Shown here: in pieces, positions 4,592 to 23,812 of the stretch
How positions within the stretch are numbered: the first letter of the stretch is position 1
How the letters are laid out: every line of letters begins with the position of its first letter
Source: Chitinophagales bacterium
Lineage (GTDB): Bacteria; Bacteroidota; Bacteroidia; Chitinophagales; CAIOSU01
Assembly (NCBI GenBank): GCA_040877935.1
Contig: JBBDNB010000009.1
Coordinates: 1-38,020, forward strand
DNA: 38,020 bases
Direction of reading: 5' to 3'
Notes under the pieces: generated by a model
The model's input: only the letters and a program-made list of their open reading frames with translations
The model's database searches: none
What the model was told of the DNA's origin: nothing
Translations under genes and position numbers: made by a program

Positions 4592-4617
4592 GACTGCTTT
4601 TTTTGATTATAAGGTGT

Positions 4618-4818: not shown

Positions 4819-4941
4819 GGATTATTTAATGCCAGAAAACAGCAATCTTCTTTCTGGAAATATCTCAAAATAGCCCGCTATTATATCAATATTTCCAGTC
4901 GAATCTCACTATTTTCAGGCATTCTGAGCCCTAAATAATTT
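4819..4941. repeat. Long imperfect inverted repeat in the pckA-dprA gap
   Basis: The 495-bp gap between dprA and pckA has no gene but contains a long interrupted hairpin. Arms pair in order: ATTATTTA (4821-4828) with TAAATAAT (4932-4939), ATGCCAGAAAACAG (4829-4842) with CTATTTTCAGGCAT (4909-4922, two mismatches), TCTGGAAATAT (4853-4863) with ATATTTCCAG (about 4890-4899), and a central AATAG/CTATT. Several bulges interrupt the pairing. It could be a degenerate MITE-like element, a REP-type intergenic repeat or a structured RNA; nothing decides between these. The rest of the gap shows nothing recognisable. Confidence 0.6.
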
Positions 4942-9444: not shown

Positions 9445-9563
9445 GGATTTGTGATGCTGGTTTTTTTATGATTTTTTATCCCATCTCCATTTAGTGTAAA
9501 AGCATTAGGAATGTAAATTCCACCTTCTTCTATTTTTATTAAAGCCGGCAATGCTATTGGCAT
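9441..9563 (-). pseudogene. Remnant of a T9SS type B (CHU_C) sorting domain
   Basis: The minus strand encodes about 40 codons containing GGIYIPNAFTLNGDGIKN. This closely resembles the YIPNAFTPNGDGINDxF signature of gliding-motility-type C-terminal domains (TIGR04131). The rest of the roughly 80-residue domain is missing, the frame stops soon after the motif, and an in-frame stop lies just upstream (about 9576-9578). It overlaps the last bases of the M1 gene. It looks like the decayed end of an older exported protein gene rather than a working gene. Confidence 0.6.
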
Positions 9564-9602
9564 GCTTCTTCTATTCTATTTGTTCTGGTTAATGAATTAA
9601 TA

Positions 9603-9989
9603 TCATGGACTTTCCTTATGACGACAAGGAGCATTTTCATAAACACGCACCTTACTTGATTTAGCTAATAAATCTTTTGATTCTTGTATAAAATCTACTT
9701 TTTCCTGTTTTGTTAAATCAGTAAGCAGTATGCAAAAATCTATTTCACCTTCCTTACCCCAAGATGCTTTTTCATAGTCTATCTTCACCTTATAATTGCT
9801 GATAAACTCAACAAACTTGTTTTTCGTTTTATGATCTATACCGTTGCCCGGGCTGTAAAACGAAACCACTAAACCATAATTAATATCTGTACCATCGTTT
9901 TTTGTACTTGAGGTGATATTAATGTTCTTACTGTTGTTGCAAGCATTTACAAGTAAACTAACTAGGATTACATAAGCTATTTTAATCAT
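9603..9989 (-). CDS. Small lipoprotein, function unknown
   Basis: The 128-residue protein starts with a lipoprotein signal (MIKIAYVILVSLLVNAC, lipid-attachment Cys17), so it is predicted to be anchored in an outer or inner membrane. The mature part has no motif I recognise. It has two Cys residues besides the lipid one and is rich in charged residues. It follows the M43 protease gene by 4 bp and is the last gene of the eleven-gene run, so it is probably co-transcribed. No terminator is visible after it. Confidence 0.8.
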   Translation of the reverse strand: MIKIAYVILVSLLVNACNNSKNINITSSTKNDGTDINYGLVVSFYSPGNGIDHKTKNKFVEFISNYKVKIDYEKASWGKEGEIDFCILLTDLTKQEKVDFIQESKDLLAKSSKVRVYENAPCRHKESP

Positions 9990-9993
9990 TTGA

Positions 9994-11268
9994 TTAGTTT
10001 TTTATTATACCTTTTTTATTGACTGTATTATTTCCAATTTTAATAGAGACCAAATATACTCCTTGTAACTTATTGCTCAGATCAATCCTTAAATTTTCAA
10101 TAGCAGATAACTCCGGTTTATAGAACTCATGTACCAGCGCTCCATGAATATTAAAAACTACAATATGGACGTCTGTTGCCATTTTATTCAACACATTGAG
10201 ATAAAAGATTCCGTTAGAAGGATTAGGAAACAACTCAATCTCAAATTCATCTTTGTTATTTGTTGCAATACCAACAGGAGTAGAACATCCCTGAGAACTC
10301 AAAATTGCCGATCTTGCATTAAGCAATGCAGCATCCATCCTATCGGCTTGACCAAATGTGAACATAACCATACAAGTATCATCTACATAATCCATATAGT
10401 TCATATACATTTCTCCATTAGCATCGCTTCCACAGCCATTAAATGGAAAAGCCGGGAATGTTGGGCAGCCTGAATTGTCCTCTTCCTGAGGGGGAGTGTC
10501 GGCAACCAAATCGTCACCACAAACATCATCACCCCATATATGAAACAGGTTTAACCAATGTCCAACTTCATGGACCGCAGTTCTACCATAATCATTTGCT
10601 TCAAATCCATCGGTTCCTGCAGTACCAGTATAACCAAATGCCCTAAAATCAATGACAATGCCATCTAATTCAGGATCGGTGGATAACTCTGAAGGAAATG
10701 AAGCATATCCTAAAGTGCCATCTGAGCCATCTAAATTGCAAACCCAGAAATTCAGATATTTAGTAGGGTCCCAATTATCCTTACCACCAGTTGCATCAAA
10801 TTTTTCATAGTCATAACCCGAAAAGTAACTCGAATCTGTATAGGTGCGGGTAATGCCAGTTGTAGGATTTCCTTCTGGATCTTGTTGTGCTAAACAAAAC
10901 TCAATTCCGCAATCAGCAGAGTAAATCCAAAAAGGATGTGTCGGCATAAGTGAGTCTTCATTTTGTAATCTAAAATCCCAGTTAAGTGCTTCTATTTGAG
11001 AAAAAATTTGTGCATCAGTAATGTTTTCCGTGCTTGTATGATATAATACGTGTACAACTACCGGAATAGTAATAATTGACGAGCGCTTCTTTTTCCCTTT
11101 GTATTTCTCAATCCATTTTTGTGTTTTTAATTCAAGCTGTTGCATTCGATGTTCAGCATTCGGATGCTTAGTTTTAATGCATTCCCAACGCTCCATTGTT
11201 GTACATTTTTGTGCGTTTATACTCATTACTGTAATGAGCAGTAGTGTCAATAAAACTCCCTGTTTCAT
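9994..11268 (-). CDS. M43 (pappalysin-like) metalloprotease with T9SS sorting domain
   Basis: A predicted secreted zinc endopeptidase of family M43 (cytophagalysin/pappalysin group). After a signal peptide (MKQGVLLTLLLITVMSINAQ) comes the propeptide and catalytic domain with the extended zinc motif HEVGHWLNLFH (His233, Glu234, His237, His243) followed by GD, and a Met-turn region MYMNYMDY (287-294). Cys residues near the active site are as expected for the family. Residues about 345-424 form a type A T9SS sorting domain (ELFPNPSNGIFYLNV, ending VNKKGIIKN), so export across the outer membrane and surface attachment or release is expected. It sits 17 bp after the SBBP gene in the operon and may process its surface partners; that last point is inference. 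Confidence 0.93.
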   Translation of the reverse strand: MKQGVLLTLLLITVMSINAQKCTTMERWECIKTKHPNAEHRMQQLELKTQKWIEKYKGKKKRSSIITIPVVVHVLYHTSTENITDAQIFSQIEALNWDFRLQNEDSLMPTHPFWIYSADCGIEFCLAQQDPEGNPTTGITRTYTDSSYFSGYDYEKFDATGGKDNWDPTKYLNFWVCNLDGSDGTLGYASFPSELSTDPELDGIVIDFRAFGYTGTAGTDGFEANDYGRTAVHEVGHWLNLFHIWGDDVCGDDLVADTPPQEEDNSGCPTFPAFPFNGCGSDANGEMYMNYMDYVDDTCMVMFTFGQADRMDAALLNARSAILSSQGCSTPVGIATNNKDEFEIELFPNPSNGIFYLNVLNKMATDVHIVVFNIHGALVHEFYKPELSAIENLRIDLSNKLQGVYLVSIKIGNNTVNKKGIIKN

Positions 11269-11285
11269 GATATCTGTTTTAATTA

Positions 11286-13241
11286 TTAATGCTTCACTAC
11301 TTTCTCCCTATACGACTTACCGGCTGACAACAGCTCCACAAAATATATGCCCGGGGCATAAGTGCTGAGGTCAAGCGTAAAGTGGTTGCCACTTAGATTG
11401 TTTTTAATGGTTTGTCTGCGACCTTGTATATCTATCAGGCTGAGAGTGGCATTGTGCAGCACTGTTTCAGTGGATATGGTGAGGTTGCTTTGGGTGGGGT
11501 TGGGATAAAGTTCAATGTGGTTACTACTATACTTATCATTTGTATTATTGGTATTTAAGCTATTAATTTTAAAACACAAAGATGTATCTGTGCATATATT
11601 TCCGGTTATAATTACAGCATAGCTTCCGTTTATTGTTGCTGTAAAACTTTGATTGGTTTCCCCACTCAAAAGGCTATTGTTATTACAATCAATCCATTGA
11701 TAACTCACTCCTGTCGCATTAGCAATTAAAGTTGGTTCTTTGTTAGTTACTGATAGATCAACAAAACATTGAGTCATTTTATGTATATAGCTATCATCGT
11801 AACTAGGAAGAGTAGAAAGCAATTCGTATTTGCCAGTTCCAGGGTCAAAATCAACAGGATTGTTTCTTGAAGTAGAAAAAATACCTGATGAAAATATTTC
11901 TCCAAGATACCCTATAGACAAGGAATTTGGTATTACTCCTCCGCCACTCCCGCTCGTTACTTTTAGTGGCAGTGACCAGAACAAGTTTCCTTCTGAATCA
12001 AGCTTTGATATATAAGTTGCGGCTGTTGAATCTGATATTAGCACATCATTTTGACTAGGGTTGGTGTTAAAATCCAACAAACCTTTAAATCGTCCAGTGA
12101 GATAAACATTATCATAACCATCCAAAGCAACAGATCTTGGTCTATTAAGATCACTTCCATAAAAGCTTTTTGCCCAGATAAAATTTCCATTTGAGTCACA
12201 TTTAAGCACATAGGTATTAAAAATATTATTTGGCGTTGATAAATTAAAAACTCCAGCCCCTGGATCAAAGTCAACTACATCCTCAAAACCTCCAACTGTA
12301 TAGATATTGGAAGCCTGATCTACTGCAATGTGTTGCACATATATATCATACCTGCCTTTTAGATTTTTTGCCCAAACCAAATTTCCGGCAGAATCTAATT
12401 TTATTATGAATTTATCAGTCGATCCCCATGAGCCGCCTGAACTTGTTCCATAATCTGATTCTAAAATATACTGTTGGAACCAATCTGGATTAAAATCAGC
12501 AGTACCCAGGAATTGTCCTGTAGCATATACGTTTGAGTGAATATCTAACGCAATTGAATAGCATCTAAGAAAACTTATGGTGGAACCACCAGAAATAAAT
12601 TTAGCATCCCATAGTAAATCACCATTCGAATTAAACTTAGTGATAAAACCACCTTCTTTACCACTATATGATTCCTGAACACCAGTCGCAAAGATATTGC
12701 CATAATTATCCATTACAACTGATTTATTACTATTGTATTCGGGTGAATTCAATGAACCAAAGTTTGTACTCCATAAATAGTTGCCGTTATCATCTAACTT
12801 CAAAATAAAACCATCGAAATCGCCAGATGTTGTTAATGAAGCAATTTGAAAAAACTCAATTTTTGCGTTAAAGTCTCCTCCAACTATGATATTACCTTGA
12901 TTATCAGTGCCAACAGAATTAATATATACACTTGGTGTCGCATTAATATAATAAACCGGGCTACCTACTATGTGTCGGACCCAAATTATATTGCTATTTG
13001 AATCCATTTTTAGGACATAAGCGTCAGGTGAACCACTTGCGGTAATTGTGCTCGGGCCAAACTGGACTGTACCGTGAAATGAACCAGCAACATATAAATT
13101 TCCTGCCTCATCAGTAGTGATAGAAGGGGGGTGATGACTTTGATTATCTAATTGGTATACCCACTCAAAATCAGGTGTTTTTGCATGCAAAAAAACTCCA
13201 AAAAATATTAAAATCCAGATAAAACCTATTGCTTTTTTCAT
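11286..13241 (-). CDS. SBBP-type beta-propeller surface protein with T9SS sorting domain
   Basis: The 651-residue exported protein has a signal peptide (MKKAIGFIWILIFFGVFLHA). At least eight repeats of about 50-60 residues follow, each with patterns such as DEAGNLYVAGSFHGTVQFG followed by D(A/G)(Y/F)(V/I)LK(M/L)D and GNxxW, which is the SBBP/bacterial propeller signature. A short Ig-like region (about 495-550, SYQWIDCNNNSLLSGETN) follows. A T9SS type A domain ends the protein (about 575-651: IELYPNPTQSNLTIS, then PGIYFVELL). It is expected on the cell surface as an interaction scaffold. It lies between the FISUMP lipoprotein and the M43 protease in the same run. The ligand is unknown. Confidence 0.9.
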   Translation of the reverse strand: MKKAIGFIWILIFFGVFLHAKTPDFEWVYQLDNQSHHPPSITTDEAGNLYVAGSFHGTVQFGPSTITASGSPDAYVLKMDSNSNIIWVRHIVGSPVYYINATPSVYINSVGTDNQGNIIVGGDFNAKIEFFQIASLTTSGDFDGFILKLDDNGNYLWSTNFGSLNSPEYNSNKSVVMDNYGNIFATGVQESYSGKEGGFITKFNSNGDLLWDAKFISGGSTISFLRCYSIALDIHSNVYATGQFLGTADFNPDWFQQYILESDYGTSSGGSWGSTDKFIIKLDSAGNLVWAKNLKGRYDIYVQHIAVDQASNIYTVGGFEDVVDFDPGAGVFNLSTPNNIFNTYVLKCDSNGNFIWAKSFYGSDLNRPRSVALDGYDNVYLTGRFKGLLDFNTNPSQNDVLISDSTAATYISKLDSEGNLFWSLPLKVTSGSGGGVIPNSLSIGYLGEIFSSGIFSTSRNNPVDFDPGTGKYELLSTLPSYDDSYIHKMTQCFVDLSVTNKEPTLIANATGVSYQWIDCNNNSLLSGETNQSFTATINGSYAVIITGNICTDTSLCFKINSLNTNNTNDKYSSNHIELYPNPTQSNLTISTETVLHNATLSLIDIQGRRQTIKNNLSGNHFTLDLSTYAPGIYFVELLSAGKSYREKVVKH

Positions 13242-13259
13242 AACATTTTAATTTTTAAA

Positions 13260-14399
13260 TTAATCCATCACGCACCTACACGAGAGGCCGTTCCAATGGT
13301 TTTCAAAATCCCTAAAAACGTAGCTACTACTATAGTCTATCATTCGGGTTCGGGCATTAAAGCCATCATAATCCGTAGCAGTCCACCATAATGCCAGCTC
13401 GCCTTTGTCTTCGAATAGTGAAGCAAATCGGTTGCCGGCAGGGTAGGCTGAAAAGTCATATTGATCGTTGCCGTTTCCACTGTTTTGCCATCCGGTAGTG
13501 GTTTTCAGGTAATTGCCCGGTTCATTGCCGGTTACGGAGGAAATAAACGAGGTCATTTCGCTCCATTCCGCATCAGTGGGTACATGCCATCCGGTGGGGC
13601 ATATTCCCCGACTGTCGTTAATGGCATCCCAGTTGTACAATTTACCATAAGGTGTATTGTTGCTGCTATTGTTATCGTAATAGCACCAGGCTCCCGAACT
13701 CGTTGCTATCCATTGGTTATCGTCCGGAATATTGGGAATGTCGGTTCCGTCCCGGTATTTTAAAGTTTTCAGGTTGGAAGCGGTCCAGCATTGGTTGCCT
13801 ATTCTCACTACCAGGTAGGTATTGCCGTCAATATCAGAAACGGAGGACGGACATGTAACGGTGCTGCATTCGTTTTGGCAATCTGAAAGCGTGGCATAAG
13901 TACCGGAAGGATCGGAGCTGCAGTTTCCATTGATACAGGCATAAGGGCCGCCCACTGTTTCAGAAATTTCAAACCTGGTGCAACTGCCTTCATTTATAGT
14001 TACATTGAAAGGCCCCCAGGTAGTATTCTCATCATAAGAGCACTTTGCCGTAAGATTGTAGGTGCCAACCGGGTATTCTTTAGTTAAAGTTCCACTTGAT
14101 CCGCATAGTGGAGCTGACTGATAATTCTCCGTAATTGTACCAATAGAACTACCATCAAGAAAAACTTCAATTTGCTTATCAAATAAAATAGCTCCGGGAC
14201 AAGGATTGTCTATCGAAGTCCACACCAAAATATCTCCCCATGCCCTACAAAAGCTTTGACAATCTTCCTTGGAGGCATAATCACCATTATCGGTTTCTAC
14301 ACAATTGCCGCTGATACATGTGTAGAGGGCTTCTTCTTTTTTGCATCCGTATGCAAAAAGTAAAGCACAGGTTAAAAAAATCAAGATTAGTATTCTCAT
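13260..14399 (-). CDS. FISUMP-domain lipoprotein with Cys-rich modules
   Basis: The 379-residue lipoprotein has signal MRILILIFLTCALLFAYGC and lipid Cys19 followed by KKEE, an acidic tail typical of surface-exported Bacteroidota lipoproteins. A small Cys module YTCISGNCVETDNGDYAS (26-43, through Cys51) is followed by a roughly 90-residue beta-rich module (54-144, WGDILVWTSIDNPC). A second Cys module (153-178, YACINGNCSSDPSGTYAT) and a Fib_succ_major (FISUMP) domain (183-379: DIDGNTYLVVRIGNQCW, GKLYNWDAIND, CPTGWHVPTDAEW, ending SCRCVMD) complete it. FISUMP domains are C-type-lectin-like in appearance, but their binding role is not established. The Cys module and 90-residue module recur in the first gene of this operon. 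Confidence 0.9.
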   Translation of the reverse strand: MRILILIFLTCALLFAYGCKKEEALYTCISGNCVETDNGDYASKEDCQSFCRAWGDILVWTSIDNPCPGAILFDKQIEVFLDGSSIGTITENYQSAPLCGSSGTLTKEYPVGTYNLTAKCSYDENTTWGPFNVTINEGSCTRFEISETVGGPYACINGNCSSDPSGTYATLSDCQNECSTVTCPSSVSDIDGNTYLVVRIGNQCWTASNLKTLKYRDGTDIPNIPDDNQWIATSSGAWCYYDNNSSNNTPYGKLYNWDAINDSRGICPTGWHVPTDAEWSEMTSFISSVTGNEPGNYLKTTTGWQNSGNGNDQYDFSAYPAGNRFASLFEDKGELALWWTATDYDGFNARTRMIDYSSSYVFRDFENHWNGLSCRCVMD

Positions 14400-14432
14400 A
14401 AGCTATAAGCTTTTCTCAAGCCAGAAAATTGA

Positions 14433-15989
14433 TCATTGATAAGGTTCCAATTCAAAGGTTCCGTTAAGCTGAATAGTCGAAACACCACATGAAGGACAAC
14501 AGCTTGATGTTGGCACATTAAGGTTATAATTCCCGGATACGATATTGTTGGAATACCCCGTGATATTCACCGTTCCAGTGCCTTCACAATCGCTGTCTGG
14601 TGCATGATAAGGGGATACTATCTGTTCAAAGTCAACAAAGCCAACGGAAGTAAGGCTATTGGGCGTAACTTGATAACTCCCTGTTATAGTTGGATTGTTG
14701 CCGAGGTAAAGGTCGAAGCCCCAGTAGTATGAAAAGTCGCCAACCGTAACTCCACTATCAGAAGAAAGTTCCAAATAGAGAAATACAGAATCAGGAGGAC
14801 CAGATAATGTATCTAATTCCCATCCAGCAGGATTATTTATTTGTACTGTTGTACCGTTAATGGTGACTTGGTTACCGTTAGCGCTACCACCACTGCAATC
14901 ATCACATGCATCCACCTCTCCAAGATCAGTGGTTTGGTCGGCTGAGAAAGTTACAGGCATAGTGCAACCTTCAACAGTCATTTGATAAGTGCCTCCCGAA
15001 GCAGGAATACCCACCTGAACCAATACTTCACCATTGTCATTTGTTTCTGTAGTGTATATCATGGCATATCCCAAATCTCCCCGCAACTGTACGGTTTTTC
15101 CTTTGAGCGGATTATCGGTGGTATTACAATAAAAACGGGCTTCTAATGTTGCGCTACTGGTCATCTTGTCGCAGTTTCCAAATACAGACGCGGTTACGGG
15201 CATCGTCACTTCATTACCATTTAGGGAAACACCACCTCCAAAACCCCATTCAAGACTTTCATCGTTAAAAGCCCAGAAATCTGCACCATTGGTATTAATA
15301 CGGTCCATTGCTTCCTGAGGGACATCAATAACAACCTCTGCGCTTGATGTATTTGGCACTACACGATTGCCAGACTCATCCCTAAACTCTATGGCAGTGA
15401 ACCCATAGGATTCTAAAATACCTTCGCCACCATTCTGATCAATAGCGGAAAAATCCCCACCGGGCATTAATTCCGCCAGCAATTCCAAATTATCAGCCCT
15501 TACATAGCGTGCATGAACGGTAATAGTGCCACTAACGGATTCACCATTTAGACCGGAAAAGCCCTGCCCATTTAGCTCAACTTTAAATTTATCACCTGGT
15601 AGCGTAGCTGCGGTATTGGCATCCACGCTGCCCAATACCTGTTGTTCAATTAATTTCACTTTAGCATACAATGCTCCATCGCCATCAATTTTCATCACAT
15701 TCCTGTACCCAGGAAAATATCCGTCTTTCTCTACTTTGATCTTATATTTTTCACCATCGAGAGAAGCATTATTAATAGTGGCCTTACCATCTCCCCCCGT
15801 TACAGCATTCGAACTACCGGATGAAACGGTAGCCCCGTTCACCGGCATACCGGTTTCATTCAACACCGTTACATGAATGGTTTCCCCTCCTGTTGATATG
15901 TCATTGGAATTGTCATCTTTTTTACATCCTGCCATCATATAGATAACAAGCGCTAAAAAAGCTACGAATAGGATTGGTTTGTTTTTCAT
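14433..15989 (-). CDS. Surface lipoprotein with carboxypeptidase-regulatory-like domain
   Basis: The 518-residue lipoprotein has signal MKNKPILFVAFLALVIYMM, then AGC (lipid Cys22) followed by KKDDNSND, which fits a surface-export signal. Residues about 35-110 look like a CarboxypepD_reg/Ig-like domain (HVTVLNETGMPVNGATVSSG, DGKATI, then YKIKVEKDGYFPGY). The middle (about 115-345) has repeated beta-sandwich patterns, including another such stretch around 285-345 (KGKTVQLRGDLGYAMIYTTE). The C-terminal region (about 370-518) is Gly/Asn/Ser-rich and contains a CC pair (TSSCCPSCG). No enzyme motif is visible. A structural or binding role at the surface is inferred from architecture and operon position. 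Confidence 0.85.
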   Translation of the reverse strand: MKNKPILFVAFLALVIYMMAGCKKDDNSNDISTGGETIHVTVLNETGMPVNGATVSSGSSNAVTGGDGKATINNASLDGEKYKIKVEKDGYFPGYRNVMKIDGDGALYAKVKLIEQQVLGSVDANTAATLPGDKFKVELNGQGFSGLNGESVSGTITVHARYVRADNLELLAELMPGGDFSAIDQNGGEGILESYGFTAIEFRDESGNRVVPNTSSAEVVIDVPQEAMDRINTNGADFWAFNDESLEWGFGGGVSLNGNEVTMPVTASVFGNCDKMTSSATLEARFYCNTTDNPLKGKTVQLRGDLGYAMIYTTETNDNGEVLVQVGIPASGGTYQMTVEGCTMPVTFSADQTTDLGEVDACDDCSGGSANGNQVTINGTTVQINNPAGWELDTLSGPPDSVFLYLELSSDSGVTVGDFSYYWGFDLYLGNNPTITGSYQVTPNSLTSVGFVDFEQIVSPYHAPDSDCEGTGTVNITGYSNNIVSGNYNLNVPTSSCCPSCGVSTIQLNGTFELEPYQ

Positions 15990-16020
15990 GATAATTGAGT
16001 TTTTCTCTTAAGAATTTCTA

Positions 16021-17103
16021 TTACTTACCGATTAAATGAACAGACATGTGGGTTGAGCCTCCCATCAAAGTAGAATTAGCTCCAGTAGTCTGAAAAACAT
16101 GTATGCTCAACTGATCGCCCTGGTTTAAATAGACAATGTCACTTCCGCTTAAGAAAACTCGAGCGGTTTGCCCAGCATCCCTACTGTCATTATCAAGCTG
16201 TGCCACAGTAGTTCCATTTACACGGTATTGAACATGAGGCTGTGCACCAATACTCCAGGTCTGGGTATCAAAAACTACCCTTGATTTTACTTCATAATAG
16301 CCTGCCACCGGGCAAATAAAAACTCCCGCAGTTGGATTATAGGCATTGTGTGTATCAAAGTTTTCATTGGGAAAAGTTGCCAGCGTTACCTGGTTATGTG
16401 GTATAGTCGTATTTTGATTATTTATCCCTTCAGCCCTTGCCACCACAAAATTTTCAAGCGCATCCAAGCGTGCATCGTTCTCGTCAATCGCATCTTGCAC
16501 GTTGCCTGGATTGTTTGGGATATTTGAACTGGTGTTGTTATAGGGTGTATTGGCTGCCGAGGTGTTGCCAGTAGGACCTTGAGGTCCTGTCAAATCACCA
16601 GAAGTAAAAGAAGTATTATCAGAATAATTGATGGTAAATGTACCGTCACCATTGTCAATAGTACTAACTACACCAACACCATCAACACCTGCCGGGCCGG
16701 GTGTGCCGGAAGCTTCGGCATAAAGGGCATAGGGTACACTTAACAATTGGCTCGTACCGCTGATGGAATAATTTGTTCCACCATTGGGATCCGTTTCCGT
16801 TTTGATGAAATATGGACCGTTTGCCCAGTCAATTGTTGAGAAATCACCGCTTTGCACATTACCCCCGCCAATTTCCAGTGTTACTAATCCATTATCGTTG
16901 GAAGAAGAGGTTTGTGTTTCTACATAAACGGCCGTTCCGGTGGCAGAACCTTGCAGAATACTGATCCGCATTCCGATCGTTGCATTAGCAGCCAGGCTAT
17001 TGTCCGCCTTTCTGACTACTGCCTGGTAGCTCATTTTTTGAGGCTGGGCGGATAAAGTTGAGCACAATATAAGGGCGGTTATAATAATGATTATCCTTTT
17101 CAT
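16021..17103 (-). CDS. Collagen-like/C1q-like fibre protein
   Basis: The 360-residue exported protein has a signal peptide (MKRIIIIITALILCSTLSAQ). The N-terminal domain (about 22-130: MSYQAVVRKADNSLAANATI, LLSVPYALYAEA) is the conserved head often found in Bacteroidota fibre proteins. Short collagen-like Gly-X-Y stretches (GTPGPAGVDGVG and LTGPQGPTGN) follow, then an 'AIDENDARLDALE' coiled-coil segment. The C-terminal globular domain (about 245-360: GVFICPVAGYYEVKSRVVF, VYLNQGDQLSIHVF) has the look of a C1q/TNF-like trimer domain. It probably forms trimeric surface fibres. It has no T9SS domain of its own and starts 2 bp after the T9SS-sorted gene upstream, which suggests tight co-expression. 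Confidence 0.85.
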   Translation of the reverse strand: MKRIIIIITALILCSTLSAQPQKMSYQAVVRKADNSLAANATIGMRISILQGSATGTAVYVETQTSSSNDNGLVTLEIGGGNVQSGDFSTIDWANGPYFIKTETDPNGGTNYSISGTSQLLSVPYALYAEASGTPGPAGVDGVGVVSTIDNGDGTFTINYSDNTSFTSGDLTGPQGPTGNTSAANTPYNNTSSNIPNNPGNVQDAIDENDARLDALENFVVARAEGINNQNTTIPHNQVTLATFPNENFDTHNAYNPTAGVFICPVAGYYEVKSRVVFDTQTWSIGAQPHVQYRVNGTTVAQLDNDSRDAGQTARVFLSGSDIVYLNQGDQLSIHVFQTTGANSTLMGGSTHMSVHLIGK

Positions 17104-17105
17104 GA

Positions 17106-17588
17106 TTATTGGTTTTTGATGATTTTAAATGATTGAATGTTTTTCCTGTCCTTTACTACCCGAAGTATGTAGCTTGCAAGGGGTAGTTCAGTAATGTCAA
17201 TTTGCGTTTGCCTATCATTGATCTCATTACTTATCAATAATTTTCCCTGAAGGTCAAATAATTGATAAGTCAGTTCACTTGCTGGAAAATCATCCATTTC
17301 AAGTATCAGGATATTTGAAACCGGGTTGGGAAATACGGAGATGGAACTACTTAATTTCATATCGTCAATTCCCGTTATTTCAAAGATTTCATAGGGTTGT
17401 TGTACGCCTCGGGCTACAGTGCCTTCAGGGGTAGTATTAGCAGTGTAAACTACCTGACCGACAGAATAGGCTACGGTACCTCCAGATCCTGAAGCATCTC
17501 CTCCTGAGGAAATGGATGATTGTTGGGCAAAGCTTGTCAGAGAGCATGTTAAAAGCCCCAATGCAAAGGATATTAGTTTAGTTTTCAT
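17106..17588 (-). CDS. Small T9SS-sorted protein
   Basis: The 160-residue exported protein has a signal peptide (MKTKLISFALGLLTCSLTSF) and a short N-terminal domain of about 60 residues (SGGDASGSGGTVAYSVGQVV, GTVARGVQQPYEI). It ends with a type A T9SS sorting domain (about 83-160: SISVFPNPVSNILILEMDDF, LASYILRVVKDRKNIQSFKI). I recall this short GxVAYSVGQVVYT module as frequent next to collagen-like fibre genes in Bacteroidota; here too the C1q-like fibre gene begins 2 bp downstream. A partner or surface anchor for that fibre is inference. Confidence 0.88.
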   Translation of the reverse strand: MKTKLISFALGLLTCSLTSFAQQSSISSGGDASGSGGTVAYSVGQVVYTANTTPEGTVARGVQQPYEIFEITGIDDMKLSSSISVFPNPVSNILILEMDDFPASELTYQLFDLQGKLLISNEINDRQTQIDITELPLASYILRVVKDRKNIQSFKIIKNQ

Positions 17589-17610
17589 TGTATTATATTT
17601 TTATTTATTG

Positions 17611-18870
17611 TTAATCTTTAACACATCGGCAGGAATTACCACCTTCGTTAAAAAAGTAATTTGAGAGTATGCTTTCGTGAGTATATTTTAATTGGAAAAA
17701 CCATCCTCTTGGATCTGTGTTTCCCTGAGCACTTGAACTCCACCAAGCTGTATTAATATTTATCGAATAAAATTCTCCATTATTATAAGAGGCTCCATCA
17801 CGATACCCCCCAGGTAATCCAGCGAATCCGCTTTCATTGCCGGCCCCTGTATTGGGTGATTCCCATAAAGATGAAGTTGATTTCATCTTTCCACCAGCTA
17901 CACCTGACCCGCCCAAATGGTCTATTAACTCATTCCATTCTAAATTAGTCGGAATGTGCCATCCGGAGGGGCAAAGCTTACCCGTATTAACGGCATGCCA
18001 GTTGTAAAGCTTCCCATAAGTATCCTCATAACTGTTATCATTGTCATAGTAGACCCATGCGCCAGACGTTTGATTTATCCAGTCATATCCATCGGTAACA
18101 TTTTGAATTGGGCTACCATCATTATACTTTGAAGTGTTCAGGTTTTCAGCCATCCAGCATTGACTTCCTATTTTTACAACTTCATAAACATTACCGTCAA
18201 TATCGCTAACCGTTGAACCGCAACTACCGCCTCCACCGGTATTGTTATCCTCCTTTTTCACTCGAATCACTATAGGCCGTTTAGCCGACCAGGAACCAAT
18301 ATTCATCAGGTGGCTCAAATCCGGCACATTGCCTTGTAAGGGAGGCTCATATATCTGTACAGTAGCGGGGGCAACCAATTCTTGGGGAACATAAGGAGTG
18401 GCTATAAAACCACCATTACATTGGCCGTCCGGAACACACATACAAATTGTTCTATCAGTTCTGGCATTAGCCGCTAAATTGCTATTTTTAAATACACTAT
18501 TACCGTTAGCATCAATGGTAATTTCAAAATGTTCATCCGCACCATCAATTTGCAGATAGATGATTTTAGCAACACCATCCGATTCAATGCTCAATTCCAT
18601 TTTATAATCATCCGGGCTTAAAACAATTTCAGGGGTAAGCACTTCCAGATTTTTGCCATAAGTACCGCCACCTGATGGTTCAGGGATGTCACCGCTTTTG
18701 CGTATGGCACCATCCAATGTGAGATTCGCGCTCAGGCTATTGGCGTCAGTAATTTCAACCTGAGGTAAGTTATGTTGATCGTCATTATCGTTGTCATCAT
18801 CCTTTTTACAACCCTGAATAATTATAGCCAGGAAGAAAAAAGTTAACAGGAAAAAATATCTCGTATTCAT
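17611..18870 (-). CDS. FISUMP-domain lipoprotein
   Basis: The 419-residue lipoprotein has signal MNTRYFFLLTFFFLAIIIQG and lipid Cys21 followed by KKDDDNDNDD, a strongly acidic tail of the surface-export type. Residues 35-205 form a domain I do not recognise, containing a short Cys cluster (TICMCVPDGQC, 141-151). After a poly-Gly linker (212-215) a Fib_succ_major (FISUMP) domain runs from 217 to 419 (DIDGNVYEVVKIGSQCWMAE, GKLYNWHAVN, CPSGWHIPTNLEW, ending SCRCVKD). The FISUMP domain is paralogous to that of the lipoprotein at 13260-14399, but the N-terminal halves differ. Spacing to the next gene is 22 bp. Confidence 0.9.
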   Translation of the reverse strand: MNTRYFFLLTFFFLAIIIQGCKKDDDNDNDDQHNLPQVEITDANSLSANLTLDGAIRKSGDIPEPSGGGTYGKNLEVLTPEIVLSPDDYKMELSIESDGVAKIIYLQIDGADEHFEITIDANGNSVFKNSNLAANARTDRTICMCVPDGQCNGGFIATPYVPQELVAPATVQIYEPPLQGNVPDLSHLMNIGSWSAKRPIVIRVKKEDNNTGGGGSCGSTVSDIDGNVYEVVKIGSQCWMAENLNTSKYNDGSPIQNVTDGYDWINQTSGAWVYYDNDNSYEDTYGKLYNWHAVNTGKLCPSGWHIPTNLEWNELIDHLGGSGVAGGKMKSTSSLWESPNTGAGNESGFAGLPGGYRDGASYNNGEFYSININTAWWSSSAQGNTDPRGWFFQLKYTHESILSNYFFNEGGNSCRCVKD

Positions 18871-18908
18871 TGTTTCACTATTTATTTAAGGTTAAAAATT
18901 GTTTACTA

Positions 18909-19355
18909 TTAATGATCGCAATCTGCATAAGTCCCACCCCATGACCTGTCATTAAATTTCACTTTATTTATATAGAATTCAATATTATTTGCATTTTTAT
19001 CATTTAACCAGTAAGAGCGTTTTCTTGAATCCCCTGAAGAAATGGAAAAACGTTCCGCTGCATAGCCATCAACTATTTCAACAGACATGGTAAGCTCTGC
19101 CTGATAAATATTCTTGAACTCTATGTACCACTTACCAGGGTAGGAATCTCTCTTTACTCGGTATCTAATACCTCTATAGCAAGAAGTTGTAGCCCAATTG
19201 CTCCATTCATATTGCAAGGCAGGGTAGCGTTCGCCAGCTTCTGAATGTACTTTATTGAAGCCTACAGATTCATAAAATACAAAGCTTTGTAGTATTGCCA
19301 TAAATGATATTATGACAATGTATTTTGCTGTAGCCAGAAATTTTTTAAAGTTCAT
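18909..19355 (-). CDS. Small exported protein, function unknown
   Basis: From the ATG at 19355 the product is 148 residues (MNFKKFLATAKYIVIISFMA...). The hydrophobic N-terminal stretch (about residues 11-26) acts as a signal or membrane anchor. An upstream ATG at 19382 would overlap the preceding gene by 13 bp and add nine residues before the signal, so the downstream ATG is preferred. The mature part is rich in aromatic and basic residues (YEWSNWATTSCYRGIRYRVK, GKWYIEFKNIYQAELTMSVE), which suggests a compact beta-sandwich. It has two Cys residues that could pair. No family was recognised. It belongs to the eleven-gene run. Confidence 0.8.
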   Translation of the reverse strand: MNFKKFLATAKYIVIISFMAILQSFVFYESVGFNKVHSEAGERYPALQYEWSNWATTSCYRGIRYRVKRDSYPGKWYIEFKNIYQAELTMSVEIVDGYAAERFSISSGDSRKRSYWLNDKNANNIEFYINKVKFNDRSWGGTYADCDH

Positions 19356-19369
19356 AGTTATAATTTTTA

Positions 19370-19798
19370 TTATTTTATCCATATTTCCCTTATTTGCTCA
19401 TTTCCACTAGCTCCTGTATTAAAAGAGAGCGTCATTGTGTCGTCAGTTAGCTCCTGTACGGTGCTTATATATTCACCGTCAATGCCATCATAAGTATAGA
19501 TGACGGTACGCTCATCTGACGATAAGCGCCAGGTACCATATCTAATACCAGCGGTAGCACCGGTACACCATAAATCACCGCTATACATAATAAGCTCACC
19601 ACCATCGACATATTCATCACTATCATCAAGCCTGCATGGTCGGTTTTCCTCTGTCCATGGCTGTGAATCACTTTGCTTCTCGACCTTAATTATGTACCAG
19701 GTCCCAACAATTAAATGAGGTTCTGGCTCAGATTCTTTTTTACAAGCTGAAGCCATTAATAGATAAAAGACAAGCCCAAAAAGAGTAAGCAACTTCAT
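19370..19798 (-). CDS. Lipocalin-like lipoprotein
   Basis: From the ATG at 19798 the product is 142 residues, starting with a lipoprotein signal (MKLLTLFGLVFYLLMASAC, lipid Cys19) followed by KKESEPEP, an acidic tail. An ATG at 19831 lies within the upstream gene and would put eleven residues before the signal, so it is not used. The mature part has the pattern of Bacteroidota lipocalin-like lipoproteins: IVGTWYIIKVEK early, then GELIMYSGD, a YGTWRLSSDERTVIYTYDG strand pair, and VQELTDDTMTLSF near the end. Lipocalin folds bind small hydrophobic ligands, but no ligand can be inferred here. It begins 4 bp after the Cys-rich gene. Confidence 0.85.
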   Translation of the reverse strand: MKLLTLFGLVFYLLMASACKKESEPEPHLIVGTWYIIKVEKQSDSQPWTEENRPCRLDDSDEYVDGGELIMYSGDLWCTGATAGIRYGTWRLSSDERTVIYTYDGIDGEYISTVQELTDDTMTLSFNTGASGNEQIREIWIK

Positions 19799-19802
19799 AT
19801 TG

Positions 19803-20768
19803 TTAGTATAAATTATATTTAGAACATCCACCTGCTACTACTTGAATGGTTCCCGGAGACCATGAATTCGTACCGCATGTAGCAGACACCGAATAAGTGC
19901 CGGGTGAATAAGTCTTTGTTATAGCTCCCGATGCTCCGCATGAAGGTGCAGAATTGTAGTAATTGGATAGCCCGCCCACATATGAACCATTCACGTAAAC
20001 AGAAATAGTGCTGCCTGCACCTGCAGAGCACGGTTGTGTATTTGAGGTCCAGATCATCAATTGCCCGGTGCTGCTGACACAACTATTCTGACAGGCAGAC
20101 AGCGATGAATAGGTCGCACCACTACTTACGTAAGAGCATGTTCCGCCTGAACAGTTGTAACCGGAAGTGCTACCGCCCCCACCGCCTGAAAGATTTGCCC
20201 GGTTAACCGTTATAAGACCACATGCTGTTGTTGCAGCTTCGCAGGTAGAATAGCACTTATTGTTCACCGAACAATAAAAGGGGCTGCTTTCCGGACAGCA
20301 AGCACCTTGTGCAGCAGGGTAGTACCCACTGTTGCAATTATGTGTTCCTGTATATTGGTGATAGGAATAGAGGCAGCCACCTCCTCCGCCTCCACCTCCA
20401 CCTCCACCTCCGCCACTTGATGACAAATTAGCCTTGCTTATAGTTGTAGAGCCACAGGCATTATCTGCTGCACTACAGGAGGAATAACATTTAGTGTCAA
20501 CTGGACAATAATAAGGCGACCCTTCCGGGCAGCAAGTGCTTGACGATACAGGATAATATCCGCTGTTAGTACAACCGCCTGTTCCCGGGTATTGATAATA
20601 ATCACAATCTATGTACTGGCAACGATCACCATAATAGCCGGAAAAGCATTCACAAATGCCATCCTCACAAATACCGAATTGACAATCAACGTCTGTACAC
20701 TTGTCACAGGAGGAAAAAAAGAAGATGATAATTCCTATTGATAAGGATAACAACAATTTTTTTTTCAT
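19803..20768 (-). CDS. Cys-rich EGF-like lipoprotein with poly-Gly linkers
   Basis: The 321-residue lipoprotein has signal MKKKLLLSLSIGIIIFFFSS and lipid Cys21. It has an EGF-like domain (24-51, CTDVDCQFGICEDGICECFS). Two copies of a roughly 55-residue Cys module follow (65-118 and 144-194; each has SGYYP, CCPExSPxYC, KCYSxC and ACG, then xANLS). A run of 13 glycines (119-131) ends the first copy and a run of five ends the second. A short Cys module (204-230, YNCSGGTC...CQNSC) and a roughly 90-residue beta-rich module (235-320, GQLMIWTSNTQPCSA, GTYSVSATC) complete it; both are shared with the FISUMP lipoprotein at 13260-14399. Many Cys residues imply oxidative folding outside the cytoplasm. 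It is the first gene of the run after the LuxR-type gene. Function unknown. Confidence 0.88.
   Translation of the reverse strand: MKKKLLLSLSIGIIIFFFSSCDKCTDVDCQFGICEDGICECFSGYYGDRCQYIDCDYYQYPGTGGCTNSGYYPVSSSTCCPEGSPYYCPVDTKCYSSCSAADNACGSTTISKANLSSSGGGGGGGGGGGGGCLYSYHQYTGTHNCNSGYYPAAQGACCPESSPFYCSVNNKCYSTCEAATTACGLITVNRANLSGGGGGSTSGYNCSGGTCSYVSSGATYSSLSACQNSCVSSTGQLMIWTSNTQPCSAGAGSTISVYVNGSYVGGLSNYYNSAPSCGASGAITKTYSPGTYSVSATCGTNSWSPGTIQVVAGGCSKYNLY
20376..20414 (-). repeat. Glycine-codon microsatellite
   Basis: Thirteen consecutive Gly codons, built mainly of GGA/GGT-type triplets on the minus strand, encode the linker between the two Cys modules of the lipoprotein at 19803-20768. Because the unit is a triplet, slippage would change linker length without breaking the frame. 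Confidence 0.85.
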
Positions 20769-20860
20769 GATGATTATTTTAAAAATTAAAACAGACGACC
20801 GAACTTCATATTAATGATTGTCCAAAATTGAATTATTCCAACAATTCGCACAATCCCCGT

Positions 20861-20872
20861 AAACCGTGATTT
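20861..20872. promoter_or_regulatory. Candidate operator AAACCGTGATTT, copy 1
   Basis: This 12-nt word lies between the LuxR-type gene and the first lipoprotein gene, 92 bp upstream of that gene's ATG and right against the LuxR stop codon. An identical word occurs at 21284-21295 on the other side of the LuxR gene. Binding by that regulator or the LytTR regulator is a guess. Confidence 0.35.
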
Positions 20873-20874
20873 TT

Positions 20875-21144
20875 CTATGCTATCAACCCCTTCCTTATCG
20901 CCATAACAGCCGCATGCACAATATTTTTTGCTTTCATCTTCTTTATGATATTCCTGCGATGGGTTTCCACTGTATTGACACTGATATACAATACATTTGC
21001 AATTTCTCTAGTGGTACTTCCATTTGCTACTTTAGCGAGTATTTCCGTTTCCCGCTTGGATAGAATTGACAGGTGCTTATATATTGTATTATCCCGCCCA
21101 TTGGACTCAATCACGCTATTGCTTGTTTTTACAGAATATTCCAC
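20875..21144 (-). CDS. Stand-alone LuxR-type HTH regulator
   Basis: The 89-residue protein consists of a short N-terminal tail and a GerE/LuxR-type helix-turn-helix (about 24-89: LSILSKRETEILAKVANGST, TREIANVLYISVNTVETHRR, NIIKKMKAKN). It has no receiver or sensor domain. The start is GTG at 21144-21142; a stop lies five codons upstream and no ATG is available. It is on the same strand as the eleven-gene run, 106 bp upstream of its first ATG, and divergent from the delta-60/kinase/LytTR unit. It could be a truncated response regulator or a genuine single-domain factor; either way it is the likely local regulator of the run. Confidence 0.88.
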   Translation of the reverse strand: MEYSVKTSNSVIESNGRDNTIYKHLSILSKRETEILAKVANGSTTREIANVLYISVNTVETHRRNIIKKMKAKNIVHAAVMAIRKGLIA

Positions 21145-21462
21145 GGAAATAACTTTTTATCTTAATTCAAATTAACAGGGATAAAAACTGATCGGCAAGT
21201 AATTGTTGTCTGCTATGGGATTTATGTTGAGAAGCCCGGTAATATTGTTGAGTTGGGCAAATTCAGGGTATACCTATCCCTGAAAACCGTGATTTGTTTT
21301 ACGGTAAAGCTTATTAAGTTATATAGGATTTCAGCAATTAAAATATATTACTTATTTTTAGAGCTATTCTGGATATTGAGAAATGATGTTAAGCGGCTGT
21401 TGTACCCTCTTTGGTTTTACCAGGATTCCTTGACTTGACTTAATTTATCTATAGCTGCTTAT
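21145..21462. other. Divergent regulatory gap between luxR-type gene and delta-60 gene
   Basis: This 318-bp stretch has no credible gene and must carry the promoters for both directions. It contains the second AAACCGTGATTT word (21284-21295). That word overlaps a small inverted repeat ACCGT-N10-ACGGT (21286-21305), a plausible dimer site. No perfect TAnnTTTG box was found on either strand; TTAATTTG (minus strand, about 21169-21162) comes closest. Confidence 0.5.
21284..21305. promoter_or_regulatory. Candidate operator, copy 2, with inverted repeat
   Basis: AAACCGTGATTT (21284-21295) is identical to 20861-20872. Here it is part of an inverted repeat with half-sites ACCGT (21286-21290) and ACGGT (21301-21305), centred about 170 bp upstream of the delta-60 gene start. 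Confidence 0.35.
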
Positions 21463-23802
21463 ATGAAAACATTTCAGATATTCATACTGCTTTCCTGCAT
21501 TTATTTTCTGTCACATGCGCAGCCCGGGACACTTGACCTGAGCTTTGATCCCGGAACGGGATTTAATGATGTCATACTTACTTCCACAATACAGGCAGAT
21601 GGCCGGATTATCATAGGCGGGCAATTCACGGATTACAATGGATTTCCGACCCGCTTCCTGGCAAGACTAAACCCCAACGGCTCTGTTGACAGCAGTTTTG
21701 TAAGCGGAACAGGCATTGACAATGTTGTAATAACAAGCGCAGTACAAGCAGACCAAAAAATCATATTGGGAGGGGTTTTTACTGCCTATAATGGTACAAT
21801 TGCAAACGGAATAGTCCGGATCAACCCCGATGGCTCAATAGATTCAGGGTTCAATACCGGAAGCGGTTTTAATGATAGGGTCAAATGCATTGCAATACAG
21901 GACGATGGAAAAATATTGGTAGGTGGGGATTTTAACTCTTTCGATGGAAATACCAGCAATAATTTAGTAAGGCTTAATACCGATGGGAGTTTTGACAATA
22001 GTTTTAATATCGGGACTACGCTTAATTCCTCCGTAGAGGATATTGACATTTACCCCGGAACAGGACAAATTTTAATTGGTGGTGATTTTTCCGTAATACA
22101 CAGCATGACCAGTGCCAATATAAGATTGCTGCGCCTAAACCCTGACGGATCCATGGACTCTACTTTCACCACAGGCTGGGGGCCGAGCAGGGTTGTATTT
22201 GATGTTGATATTCTAAAGGACGGGACGATTGCTATTGTCGGCAACTTTTCATCCTATAATTCTGCTTCGGTAAACAGATATGCCCGATTGAATCCAAGCG
22301 GCACCCTTAATGGTTCGCATGTTTACGGTTTGGGCTTTAATAGGGAAGTGAAAAAAATACTGACTGTTGATAGAAACCATGACGGTATAAATGATGCCTA
22401 TTTCTTTGGAGGGCTTTTTACGGATTACCAATCTCAAACGGCCAACCATATAGCCCTGATCGACACTTTTGGACTTTCCATTCCTGATTTTAATCCCGGT
22501 ACTGGCCCTGACAACAGTGTTCTGGATGTTTCCTTGCAAAATGACAATAGAGTCATTATTGTTGGAGGATTCAATGAATACAACGGCATCCCGCGAAACG
22601 GCATCGCGCGCATTTATATTTGCCAAACGGCACAGCCCGACAGCATCATTGGAAGTGCTACTACACGCTGCCCGGGAGAAACATTGACTTATTCTGTTCC
22701 TTTAAACCCAGTAGTAGATTATTACGAATGGACATTGCCACCGGGCTGGACAGGCAGTTCCGATTCTGCTTCCATTACTGTAATATCCAATGGGCAAGGT
22801 GGTGTGCTATCCGTAAAAGCCTTTACCGATAGCTGTGGCTACAGCATTCCCATGCAGAAAAATATTGAGCGGGTACAACCGCCCTACACGCCCATCTGCC
22901 TGGTGACCGTTGATTCCAGCAGCAACCACAATATTGTGATCTGGGGCAAACCAATGGATAAGTCATTTATTGACAGCTTCCTGATTTATAGGGAAACTAC
23001 AACAGGGGTTTATACTAAAATTGCTGGTAAACATAGGGATTCATTAAGCGAATATCATGATTATGATGCCAACCCCAATGCAACTTCCTATCGCTATAAA
23101 ATTTCGGTATTGGATACCTGTGGTGTAGAATCGGACTTAAGTCCTTATCACAATTCAATTCACCTGCAAAATTTGGGCAACGGGAATTTGCAGTGGACTT
23201 TTTACCAAATTGAAAGCAGTACCAACCCGGTGACTGAGTTCAATGTTTACCGCGACAATTTTGGCAATGGAAATTTCACGCAAATAGGACTGGTCCCCGG
23301 CACCAATTCAACATTCACCGATATCAGTTATTCCTCTTTTCCCGATGCAGAATATTTAGTGGATGTGCATTGGGGCATTTCCTGTTCTCCGGTTGCCCGT
23401 ACTGTCAATACCACCCGCTCCAATATCAGGAAAGGAAGTGCGGTGACAATCATTGACACCAGCATTATTGACACGGTTAACAACCCAATAGATACATTGG
23501 ACAACGATACCACGCAGAACAATGATACAAGTACTGTTCTGGTCAATTTCGATGCACTGGATCTGTATGTCAATATTTATCCCAATCCCGCTACTGATGT
23601 GGTCTATATTAATACCGATGCCCATGTTCAAGTTAAGGCCATTCAGGTCTTTGATTTGCCGGGAAAAGAAGTGTTGCGCAAATTGCTGCCCTCCAATTCA
23701 AATCTGCATTCCATTCCCCTTGACAATTTGAAAACAGGCATTTACCTCGTGCTGATAGATACCAACCGGGGACAAGTAAGGAAAAAACTTTTTGTTCGGT
23801 AA
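21463..23802 (+). CDS. Delta-60 repeat surface protein with T9SS sorting domain
   Basis: The 779-residue exported protein has a signal peptide (MKTFQIFILLSCIYFLSHA). About seven delta-60 repeats (residues 22-385) follow, each with patterns like FDPGTGFNDVILTSTIQADG, then RIIIGGQFTDYNG and ARLNPNGSVDSSF, which should fold as a beta-propeller. A Cys-containing PKD/Ig-like segment comes next (about 395-470, YYEWTLPPGWTG), then a fibronectin-III-like region (about 480-570, SYRYKISVLDTCG), an Asn/Asp/Thr-rich linker (about 665-695) and a type A T9SS domain (about 700-779: LYVNIYPNPATDVVYINT, GIYLVLIDTNRGQVRKKLFV). It is predicted to be displayed at the surface. Its stop lies 10 bp before the kinase ATG, so it is probably co-transcribed with the signalling pair and may be its sensory accessory; that role is inference. 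Confidence 0.92.
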   Translation: MKTFQIFILLSCIYFLSHAQPGTLDLSFDPGTGFNDVILTSTIQADGRIIIGGQFTDYNGFPTRFLARLNPNGSVDSSFVSGTGIDNVVITSAVQADQKIILGGVFTAYNGTIANGIVRINPDGSIDSGFNTGSGFNDRVKCIAIQDDGKILVGGDFNSFDGNTSNNLVRLNTDGSFDNSFNIGTTLNSSVEDIDIYPGTGQILIGGDFSVIHSMTSANIRLLRLNPDGSMDSTFTTGWGPSRVVFDVDILKDGTIAIVGNFSSYNSASVNRYARLNPSGTLNGSHVYGLGFNREVKKILTVDRNHDGINDAYFFGGLFTDYQSQTANHIALIDTFGLSIPDFNPGTGPDNSVLDVSLQNDNRVIIVGGFNEYNGIPRNGIARIYICQTAQPDSIIGSATTRCPGETLTYSVPLNPVVDYYEWTLPPGWTGSSDSASITVISNGQGGVLSVKAFTDSCGYSIPMQKNIERVQPPYTPICLVTVDSSSNHNIVIWGKPMDKSFIDSFLIYRETTTGVYTKIAGKHRDSLSEYHDYDANPNATSYRYKISVLDTCGVESDLSPYHNSIHLQNLGNGNLQWTFYQIESSTNPVTEFNVYRDNFGNGNFTQIGLVPGTNSTFTDISYSSFPDAEYLVDVHWGISCSPVARTVNTTRSNIRKGSAVTIIDTSIIDTVNNPIDTLDNDTTQNNDTSTVLVNFDALDLYVNIYPNPATDVVYINTDAHVQVKAIQVFDLPGKEVLRKLLPSNSNLHSIPLDNLKTGIYLVLIDTNRGQVRKKLFVR

Positions 23803-23812
23803 AGCAAGAACC

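Follow-up and report, generated by a model that had tools for sequence, protein, structure and literature searches.

A putative LytTR-to-LuxR control module beside an eleven-gene surface-protein operon in a Chitinophagales bacterium

We analysed a 38,020-nucleotide stretch of a Chitinophagales genome (contig JBBDNB010000009.1 of assembly GCA_040877935.1, hereafter the window), in which a minus-strand run of eleven genes for surface proteins (the payload, with gene 11 as its first and gene 1 as its last gene) lies behind a small luxR gene. Divergent from luxR, at 21463-27701 on the plus strand, Pfam identifies a DUF5122 cargo protein of the type IX secretion system (T9SS), a propeller-type kinase and a LytTR regulator. 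We found that luxR is preceded by three direct repeats spaced at 21 bp, a TTG and a TTnnTTTG-type box, and that this layout stands upstream of luxR at all three loci where the module was recognized. We have hardly any doubt that cargo, kinase, LytTR regulator and luxR form a real module, and we think that the locus as a whole would probably be a signal-switched surface-adhesion cassette.

The two other loci are L070, found in genome G013 of another family within the Chitinophagales and arranged like the window, and L245 of genome G436, a member of a different taxonomic order. Three CAACA cores occur at an exact 21-bp period upstream of luxR both in the window (AACTCAACA-12-TTCTCAACA-12-CAGACAACA) and in L070 (AACTCAACA-12-TCCACAACA-12-TTCTCAACA). 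Among the periods of 12 to 40 bp tried, 21 alone gives matches in both, and the triple pattern appeared in none of 100 single-base shuffles of the window. Elsewhere among the scanned loci, from which regions L264-L272 were left out, it was met only in excerpts of the window and L070 places, and among 20 loci of the class only in L251. The L251 match (4750-4850) is a tandem array of 21-bp units with TTCACAACATTC and lacks the promoter layout.

A matrix built from the six repeats of the window and L070 placed its top site in L245 (19.9 kb) directly upstream of luxR, with a score of 14.4 against 12.5 for the next. The last repeat lies 5, 6 and 5 nt before the TTG, or -33 element, in the window, L070 and L245, and the TTG lies 20, 19 and 20 nt before the boxes TTAATTTG, TTGCTTTG and TTCCTTTG, respectively. 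At a repeat score of at least 14, a threshold fixed after the L245 value was known, the layout was found at none of 78 control loci (1.16 Mb, with 21 sites reaching that score), which included L244 and others holding parts of the module as well as all 20 other solo-luxR loci. Because of this late choice of threshold, a matrix-free comparison is fairer. Across 15 solo-luxR upstream regions, three from the module and 12 from among the 20 further loci fetched, the module loci gave the highest scores for 9-mers spaced by 21 bp (19, 20 and 21 of 27, against 11-17 in the other 12), and only there did the best repeat carry the promoter layout.

LytTR operators of Streptococcus mutans are described as 9-bp repeats, mostly 12 bp apart and 4-11 bp before the -35 element (PMC6193735). 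The repeats reported here, 9 bp long, about 12 bp apart and 5, 6 and 5 nt before the -33 element, fall within this range and thus agree closely with promoters activated by LytTR proteins, the third repeat being an addition. Activated promoters of this kind are on record for AgrA (PMC4227749) and HdrR/BrsR (PMC6193735), and the likeness extends to direct repeats just upstream of the promoter and a regulator encoded nearby; a receiver-LytTR regulator is indeed encoded close by in the window, L070 and L245. Unlike those examples, the present promoters have three repeats instead of two and a CAACA core instead of the repeats listed there; their target would be a solo LuxR gene, by which a second regulator is inserted into the chain. 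Based on the sequence, it is probable that the LytTR regulator acts on luxR.

The control genes recur together. L070 repeats the arrangement of the window from payload through solo LuxR and motif (see below) to the divergent DUF5122 cargo, kinase and LytTR regulator, with identities to the window of 45% for LuxR, 42% for the cargo, 46% for the kinase and 56% for the regulator. Its payload is a different one. It consists of a lipoprotein with a Big_2 domain and two proteins bearing T9SS tails, one of which combines DUF7948, SBBP and cohesin domains, and the lipoprotein adjoining luxR shows no homology to gene 5 of the window. Within about 10 kb, L245 has genes of all four kinds, for a LytTR regulator, a HisKA_2 kinase, a solo LuxR and a DUF5122 cargo (39%, 45% and 47% identity to the window for kinase, regulator and cargo). 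A PIN-like toxin-antitoxin pair, assigned by eye, lies between its kinase and luxR (4131-4720).

Using the C-terminal domain of the cargo as a marker, we obtained matches at E<=1e-12 in 43 of 396 genomes of the order, with more than 500 bits in two only, those of the window and G013. The next-best matches, in 395 genomes of the class, were G444 (349 bits) and G436 (333 bits). The marker occurs in one of 30 genomes of the family of G013, and at E<=1e-60 only G436 itself and G415 match among 33 genomes of the relatives of G436. A contig search with two peptide patterns from the same domain gave four weak loci, and 20 regions of weaker cargo-domain matches contained no window-like LuxR, kinase or LytTR regulator at E<=1e-4. 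Among 20 regions of the class, which together take in 23 of 28 listed places in genomes other than that of the window, a kinase match of at least 38% to the window or L070 was present in six (L244, L245, L246, L249, L256 and L258), and that of L262 was weak (25%).

The regulators themselves are of simple build. LuxR, of 89 amino acids, has GerE as its sole domain over cut-off; neither an autoinducer-binding domain, as in quorum-sensing receptors, nor a receiver domain, as in NarL-type response regulators, exceeds its cut-off. Kinase and LytTR regulator are two separate genes and hence not a hybrid two-component system. The sequence-only reading, which had placed a LuxR-type gene at the head of the operon, was right about the gene; control, in our reading, would be shared with the divergent kinase/LytTR pair.

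How LuxR might reach the payload is less clear, and this step is weaker than that from LytTR to luxR. Two copies of a AATCACGG motif flank luxR; the pattern was derived from these very copies, so that their exact match is not evidence. A search of 149 related genomes, by which L070 was found, gave matches with at most one mismatch in 11 genomes, including the window's own. Outside it there were 13 places, compared with 7 for a reversed control, and a LuxR match lies beside one of the 13 (L070), where some 30 bp separate the motif from luxR. Upstream of gene 11, the end of copy 2 coincides with the TTG of a candidate promoter (TTG, 20 nt, CAATTTTG), and at L070 a TTG stands at the same offset, followed by 19 nt and CATCTTTG. 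On each strand of the window, the combined TTG/-7 test is passed by 0.13 sites per 100 bp. The dyad of the motif would be centred near -42 of the candidate payload promoter, and LuxR-type activators often sit near this position. We regard the chances that LuxR acts on the payload as even; our estimate had stood slightly above this and was lowered because the exact-motif locus of G140 fails the promoter test.

That locus, L069, bears at 10870-10889 the exact 20-mer AATCACGG-TTTT-CCGTGATT upstream of an operon for a fibre resembling mosaic adhesive trimers (MATs). The weight of the motif is carried only by the exact 20-mer in G013 and G140 and by the copies beside luxR. We rejected the motif as the mark of a broad regulon, given that it has fewer sites than its reversed pattern (71 against 100 in 52 genomes).

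The payload spans 20768 to 9603 as eleven open reading frames whose ten inner gaps measure 2-38 bp, which bears out the arrangement first proposed; for genes 9 and 10 an inner ATG was taken as start, the longer starts overlapping the neighbouring genes. The luxR gene does lie on the same strand, but a gap of 106 bp, which holds the candidate promoter, separates it from gene 11. Most of the domain assignments made from the letters alone also stood. Pfam recovers both FISUMP lipoproteins (142 and 145 bits) and the lipocalin-like lipoprotein (Lipocalin_4 in gene 10, 28.2 bits, cut-off 22.4), together with the small T9SS protein beside a C1q fibre (gene 6, 33.8 bits, cut-off 23.7), the T9SS propeller and the T9SS M43 protease, whose Peptidase_M43 domain (58 bits) has an intact zinc motif, HEVGHWLNLFH. 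T9SS sorting tails are found on three of the eleven products (genes 2, 3 and 7) and on none of the other eight; the divergent DUF5122 protein bears one as well. Two assignments did not hold in full. The EGF-like character of the Cys-rich lipoprotein, gene 11, falls under cut-off (15.5 against 22.1 bits), and gene 5 is a lipoprotein as proposed, but not with the Ig-like domain expected, its Big_1 match remaining under cut-off (24.7 against 34.9) and CarboxypepD_reg being found instead (35.3 bits, cut-off 32.3).

For genes 1 and 9, neither Pfam nor NCBIfam gave a family above cut-off. Lipoboxes were read by eye, as were signal peptides, and the former are present on genes 1, 4, 5, 8, 10 and 11. 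For gene 9, with a predicted N-terminal helix at residues 3-34, a firm identity was dropped, its PDB sequence matches having E values of 0.18 or worse; a single-sequence model (mean predicted local distance difference test score, pLDDT, of 70) has a designed protein as top fold match (E 1.0e-3) and hints weakly at an Ig-like beta-sandwich. No SusC/SusD or carbohydrate-enzyme Pfam match lies above cut-off in the 12 genes and no fimbrial (FimA/Mfa) Pfam or NCBIfam domain in the 11 payload proteins, in agreement with the earlier view that the operon is neither a polysaccharide utilization locus nor a fimbrial one.

Part of the payload exists a second time in the same genome, which encodes eight FISUMP domains. 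At L266, on contig C26, an operon encodes an S74-type fibre, a small T9SS-tailed protein, a second fibre, a FISUMP lipoprotein and a T9SS-tailed propeller. Gene 7 matches L266 11410-12030 (29% over 159 aa, E 1e-12), gene 6 matches 10007-11359 in its N-terminal part (42% over 118 aa), gene 4 matches 8528-9964 (32% over 331 aa) and gene 3 matches 6724-8514 in its C-terminal part (34% over 186 aa). The order gene 7-fibre-FISUMP-propeller is identical in the two places, gene 5 apart, and since part of the gene order recurs, the eleven-gene run is more than chance. The divergent neighbours of L266 are a Reg_prop kinase with HisKA_3 and a receiver-LuxR regulator. Of 94 loci scanned, the window and L266 alone combine FISUMP with the fibre N-terminal domain, but the sample is biased in that every FISUMP locus in it comes from the source genome. 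Of the comparable gene set that had been asked of a second genome, a part was found, as a same-order copy in the same genome; FISUMP was not seen in loci fetched from other genomes, although these had been selected on different grounds and genomes were not searched for the payload set. The gene 6-gene 7 pair of L069 and L066 was not counted, being in opposite order and 25-26% identical in the N-terminal stretch.

The FISUMP lipoprotein of L266 (8528-9964) shows a HEMVH metalloprotease-like motif in its N-terminal half (ATLF 23.7 bits, cut-off 27.4). With this motif, both payload copies may combine a metalloprotease with a fibre.

MAT proteins of Bdellovibrio are described as sharing a domain of about 130 aa after the signal peptide and as ending in S74, TNF/C1q-like or other folds (PMC10769870). 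Against the Bdellovibrio MAT domain NF053851, the N-terminus of gene 6 gives E 7e-8 over profile positions 4-78 of 162 (32.4 bits, under the cut-off of 60), and six of seven related proteins including gene 6 (five of the six relatives) match it, all under the curated cut-off. The C-terminal tips are C1q in gene 6, over cut-off, and S74 in L266 11984-13324. The signal peptide, a similar N-terminal domain and TNF/C1q-type or S74 C-termini recall the MATs as described in PMC10769870, whereas here the locus is of Bacteroidota type, the operon includes FISUMP lipoproteins and T9SS cargo, and the N-terminal match is under cut-off. We call gene 6 MAT-like and do not place it among the MATs. It probably forms a trimeric fibre, and we lean towards an adhesive fibre as part of the payload.

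Several observations weigh against the reading of the locus as a LytTR- and LuxR-switched adhesion cassette. At a repeat score of at least 8, one control site, in L185 and distant from its luxR, has the layout, and four of the 12 other regions of the matrix-free comparison show it after weaker repeats (6-13 of 27); the post hoc threshold of the matrix has been mentioned above. The -7 boxes differ at one position from TAnnTTTG, the sigma-A -7 consensus described in Flavobacterium psychrophilum (PMC9723704). L245 has other genes between its four types, no surface operon after luxR and only degenerate motif copies, and LuxR sequence alone does not single out its LuxR as an orthologue, so that we rejected it as proof of orthology. 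The fibre-to-MAT match is under the curated cut-off, and the FISUMP payload was found at two places, both in the source genome. As regards the motif, there is no enrichment in 52 genomes at up to three mismatches (71 sites in the forward and 100 in the reversed, control orientation), copy 1 has no test-passing promoter directly at its end, the L070 payload has no motif upstream, and no -7 box that passes the test follows the exact motif of L069.

The last two points would fit an explanation in which luxR and the eleven genes are one long transcript from the LytTR-activated promoter, LuxR acting elsewhere or on itself and the AATCACGG copy before gene 11 being either a remnant or an RNA hairpin by which read-through is adjusted. 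The short distance between luxR and gene 11 on the same strand speaks for it too, as does the 18-mer, a perfect inverted repeat in L070 and L069 with a possible 7-bp hairpin and a one-sided T-run (by eye). However, this T-run lies on the strand opposite the operon at both loci (by eye), the repeat of the window is imperfect, and its TTG and -7 box stand at the same offset as in L070. A scan of the sense strand from 9.5 to 21.5 kb gave one exact TTG/TAnnTTTG promoter, inside gene 3; the promoters proposed here are of one-mismatch types, and the scan thus says little about a single transcript. We consider this explanation unlikely, although it deserves to be kept in mind.

The motif could also belong to another regulator, for example of fibre genes, with LuxR's own site elsewhere. 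This would account for the exact 20-mer before the MAT-like fibre operon of G140, where the fetched 19.5 kb contain no LuxR match, and for a one-mismatch copy before a receiver-LuxR gene in G007 (by eye); against it, two copies flank the luxR of the window and one adjoins that of G013, and we judge it improbable. A chance run of unrelated surface genes, which would agree with payloads that differ between module loci and with a payload set not found in a second genome (no genome search for it was made), is very improbable in view of the partial same-order copy beside a second propeller kinase and of a control region conserved across the module loci.

Returning to the signal-switched cassette, we infer the following circuit from the genes and their order, the recurring control genes, the repeat and promoter layout in three genomes and the partial second payload copy. 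The Reg_prop kinase would sense an envelope signal, perhaps via the adjacent T9SS-tailed DUF5122 propeller, and phosphorylate the LytTR regulator. The latter would bind the three repeats and activate the luxR promoter just downstream. LuxR, in turn, may bind the AATCACGG sites, one where the candidate payload promoter has its -33 element and probably another near its own gene. The payload operon would then display a MAT-like, trimeric, C1q-tipped fibre on the surface, along with the two FISUMP lipoproteins, small lipoproteins, the T9SS propeller and the T9SS M43 protease. This retains the dedicated surface assembly of the sequence-only reading, with its probable trimeric fibre and now a partial second copy, and adds a regulatory circuit. 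Its certainty about the protease is reduced: that the M43 enzyme trims or releases the fibre seems doubtful to us, and platform roles for the lipoproteins are a guess. A broader and rather unlikely proposal is a contact-sensing circuit, in which the exported propeller would be the outer sensory arm of the propeller kinase and a LytTR-to-solo-LuxR relay would deploy mosaic trimeric fibres, together with FISUMP lipoproteins and a metalloprotease, to hold on to a certain surface or cell, in a manner similar to the deployment of fibres by Bdellovibrio, the control head being movable between different surface payloads.

Hybrid two-component systems and SusCD loci of Bacteroidetes likewise place a Reg_prop/Y_Y_Y sensor beside a surface-protein operon. 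In contrast to these, the window has a separate HisKA_2 kinase and LytTR regulator, and no SusC/SusD or carbohydrate-enzyme match in the 12 genes. For a T9SS-tailed protein acting with a kinase, the nearest parallel is, by analogy, PorA of Porphyromonas gingivalis, a T9SS C-terminal domain protein described as acting on PorXY-SigP signalling (PMC7712824; PMC4800418). There too, a T9SS-tailed protein is proposed to pass a signal from the surface on to a two-component system with a second regulator; that regulator, as described, is an extracytoplasmic function (ECF) sigma factor controlling secretion-machine genes, whereas here LytTR and solo LuxR appear to control cargo and lipoproteins. Among the matches listed in the open-licence literature, no title or abstract start describes a LytTR-to-solo-LuxR relay in Bacteroidota or connects solo LuxR genes with LytTR systems, and the word FISUMP is in none of the open-licence papers searched, other names of the domain not having been searched. 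With its candidate operators, a defined regulator pair and a defined set of surface targets, the locus would allow the roles of solo LuxR and of FISUMP to be addressed directly.

Table 1. Coordinates of the payload, its control genes and the candidate regulatory sites in the window
Feature	Position	Strand	Basis
Gene 1, last of operon: 128-aa lipoprotein, no family	9603..9989	-	Pfam/NCBIfam scan
Gene 2: M43 metalloprotease, T9SS sorting tail	9994..11268	-	PF05572 58 bits, PF18962 48 bits, motif HEVGHWLNLFH
Gene 3: SBBP beta-propeller, T9SS tail	11286..13241	-	Pfam; L266 6724-8514 counterpart
Gene 4: FISUMP lipoprotein	13260..14399	-	Pfam; L266 8528-9964 counterpart
Gene 5: lipoprotein with CarboxypepD_reg domain	14433..15989	-	Pfam
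Gene 6: predicted fibre, MAT-like N-terminal domain and C1q tip	16021..17103	-	Pfam, NCBIfam NF053851; L266 10007-11359 counterpart
Gene 7: small protein, T9SS tail	17106..17588	-	Pfam; L266 11410-12030 counterpart
Gene 8: second FISUMP lipoprotein	17611..18870	-	Pfam
Gene 9: 148-aa anchored protein, weak Ig-like beta-sandwich model	18909..19355	-	structure model
Gene 10: lipocalin-like lipoprotein	19370..19798	-	Lipocalin_4 28.2 bits; start chosen
Gene 11, first of payload: Cys-rich, glycine-rich lipoprotein	19803..20768	-	open reading frame, Pfam scan
Candidate payload promoter: TTG (20853-20851), 20 nt, CAATTTTG (20830-20823)	20823..20853	-	
Motif copy 2, AATCACGGTTTACGGGGATTG; end overlaps TTG of candidate payload promoter	20851..20871	-	
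luxR: 89-aa solo GerE helix-turn-helix	20875..21144	-	PF00196 70 bits
Candidate luxR promoter: TTG (21198-21196), 20 nt, TTAATTTG (21175-21168)	21168..21198	-	
Candidate LytTR-type operator: 9-mers AACTCAACA / TTCTCAACA / CAGACAACA, 12 bp apart	21204..21254	-	
Motif copy 1, AATCACGGTTTTCAGGGATAG	21274..21294	-	
DUF5122 propeller, PKD_6 and T9SS tail; predicted exported cargo, candidate kinase input partner	21463..23802	+	Pfam
Reg_prop/Y_Y_Y sensor with HisKA_2 histidine kinase	23792..26977	+	Pfam
Response regulator: receiver and LytTR DNA-binding domain	26961..27701	+	Pfam

Parts of this arrangement are seen more widely. At L244, L246, L249, L256 and L258, T9SS proteins with the C-terminal domain of the window cargo lie near Reg_prop/Y_Y_Y sensors whose output is SpoIIE (three) or guanylate cyclase (two) and not a kinase; that T9SS-tailed cargo recurs near propeller sensors with kinase, SpoIIE or cyclase outputs suggests a general link of exported proteins to signalling in these bacteria. 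Solo LuxR helix-turn-helix genes are scattered across the order, among the matches listed. They adjoin kinase and LytTR pairs also at L170 (9889-13737, Reg_prop/His_kinase) and L182 (6549-10217, TPR kinase), where the repeat operator of the window is not present, and the link between LytTR and solo LuxR may be wider than the module of the window. L168 holds a tandem pair of solo LuxR genes (9798-10443). The window itself carries, at 35359-37798, a second and ordinary two-component pair, a NarL-type regulator and a PAS kinase, which is nearest to MctR/MctS and under the curated cut-offs of those models.

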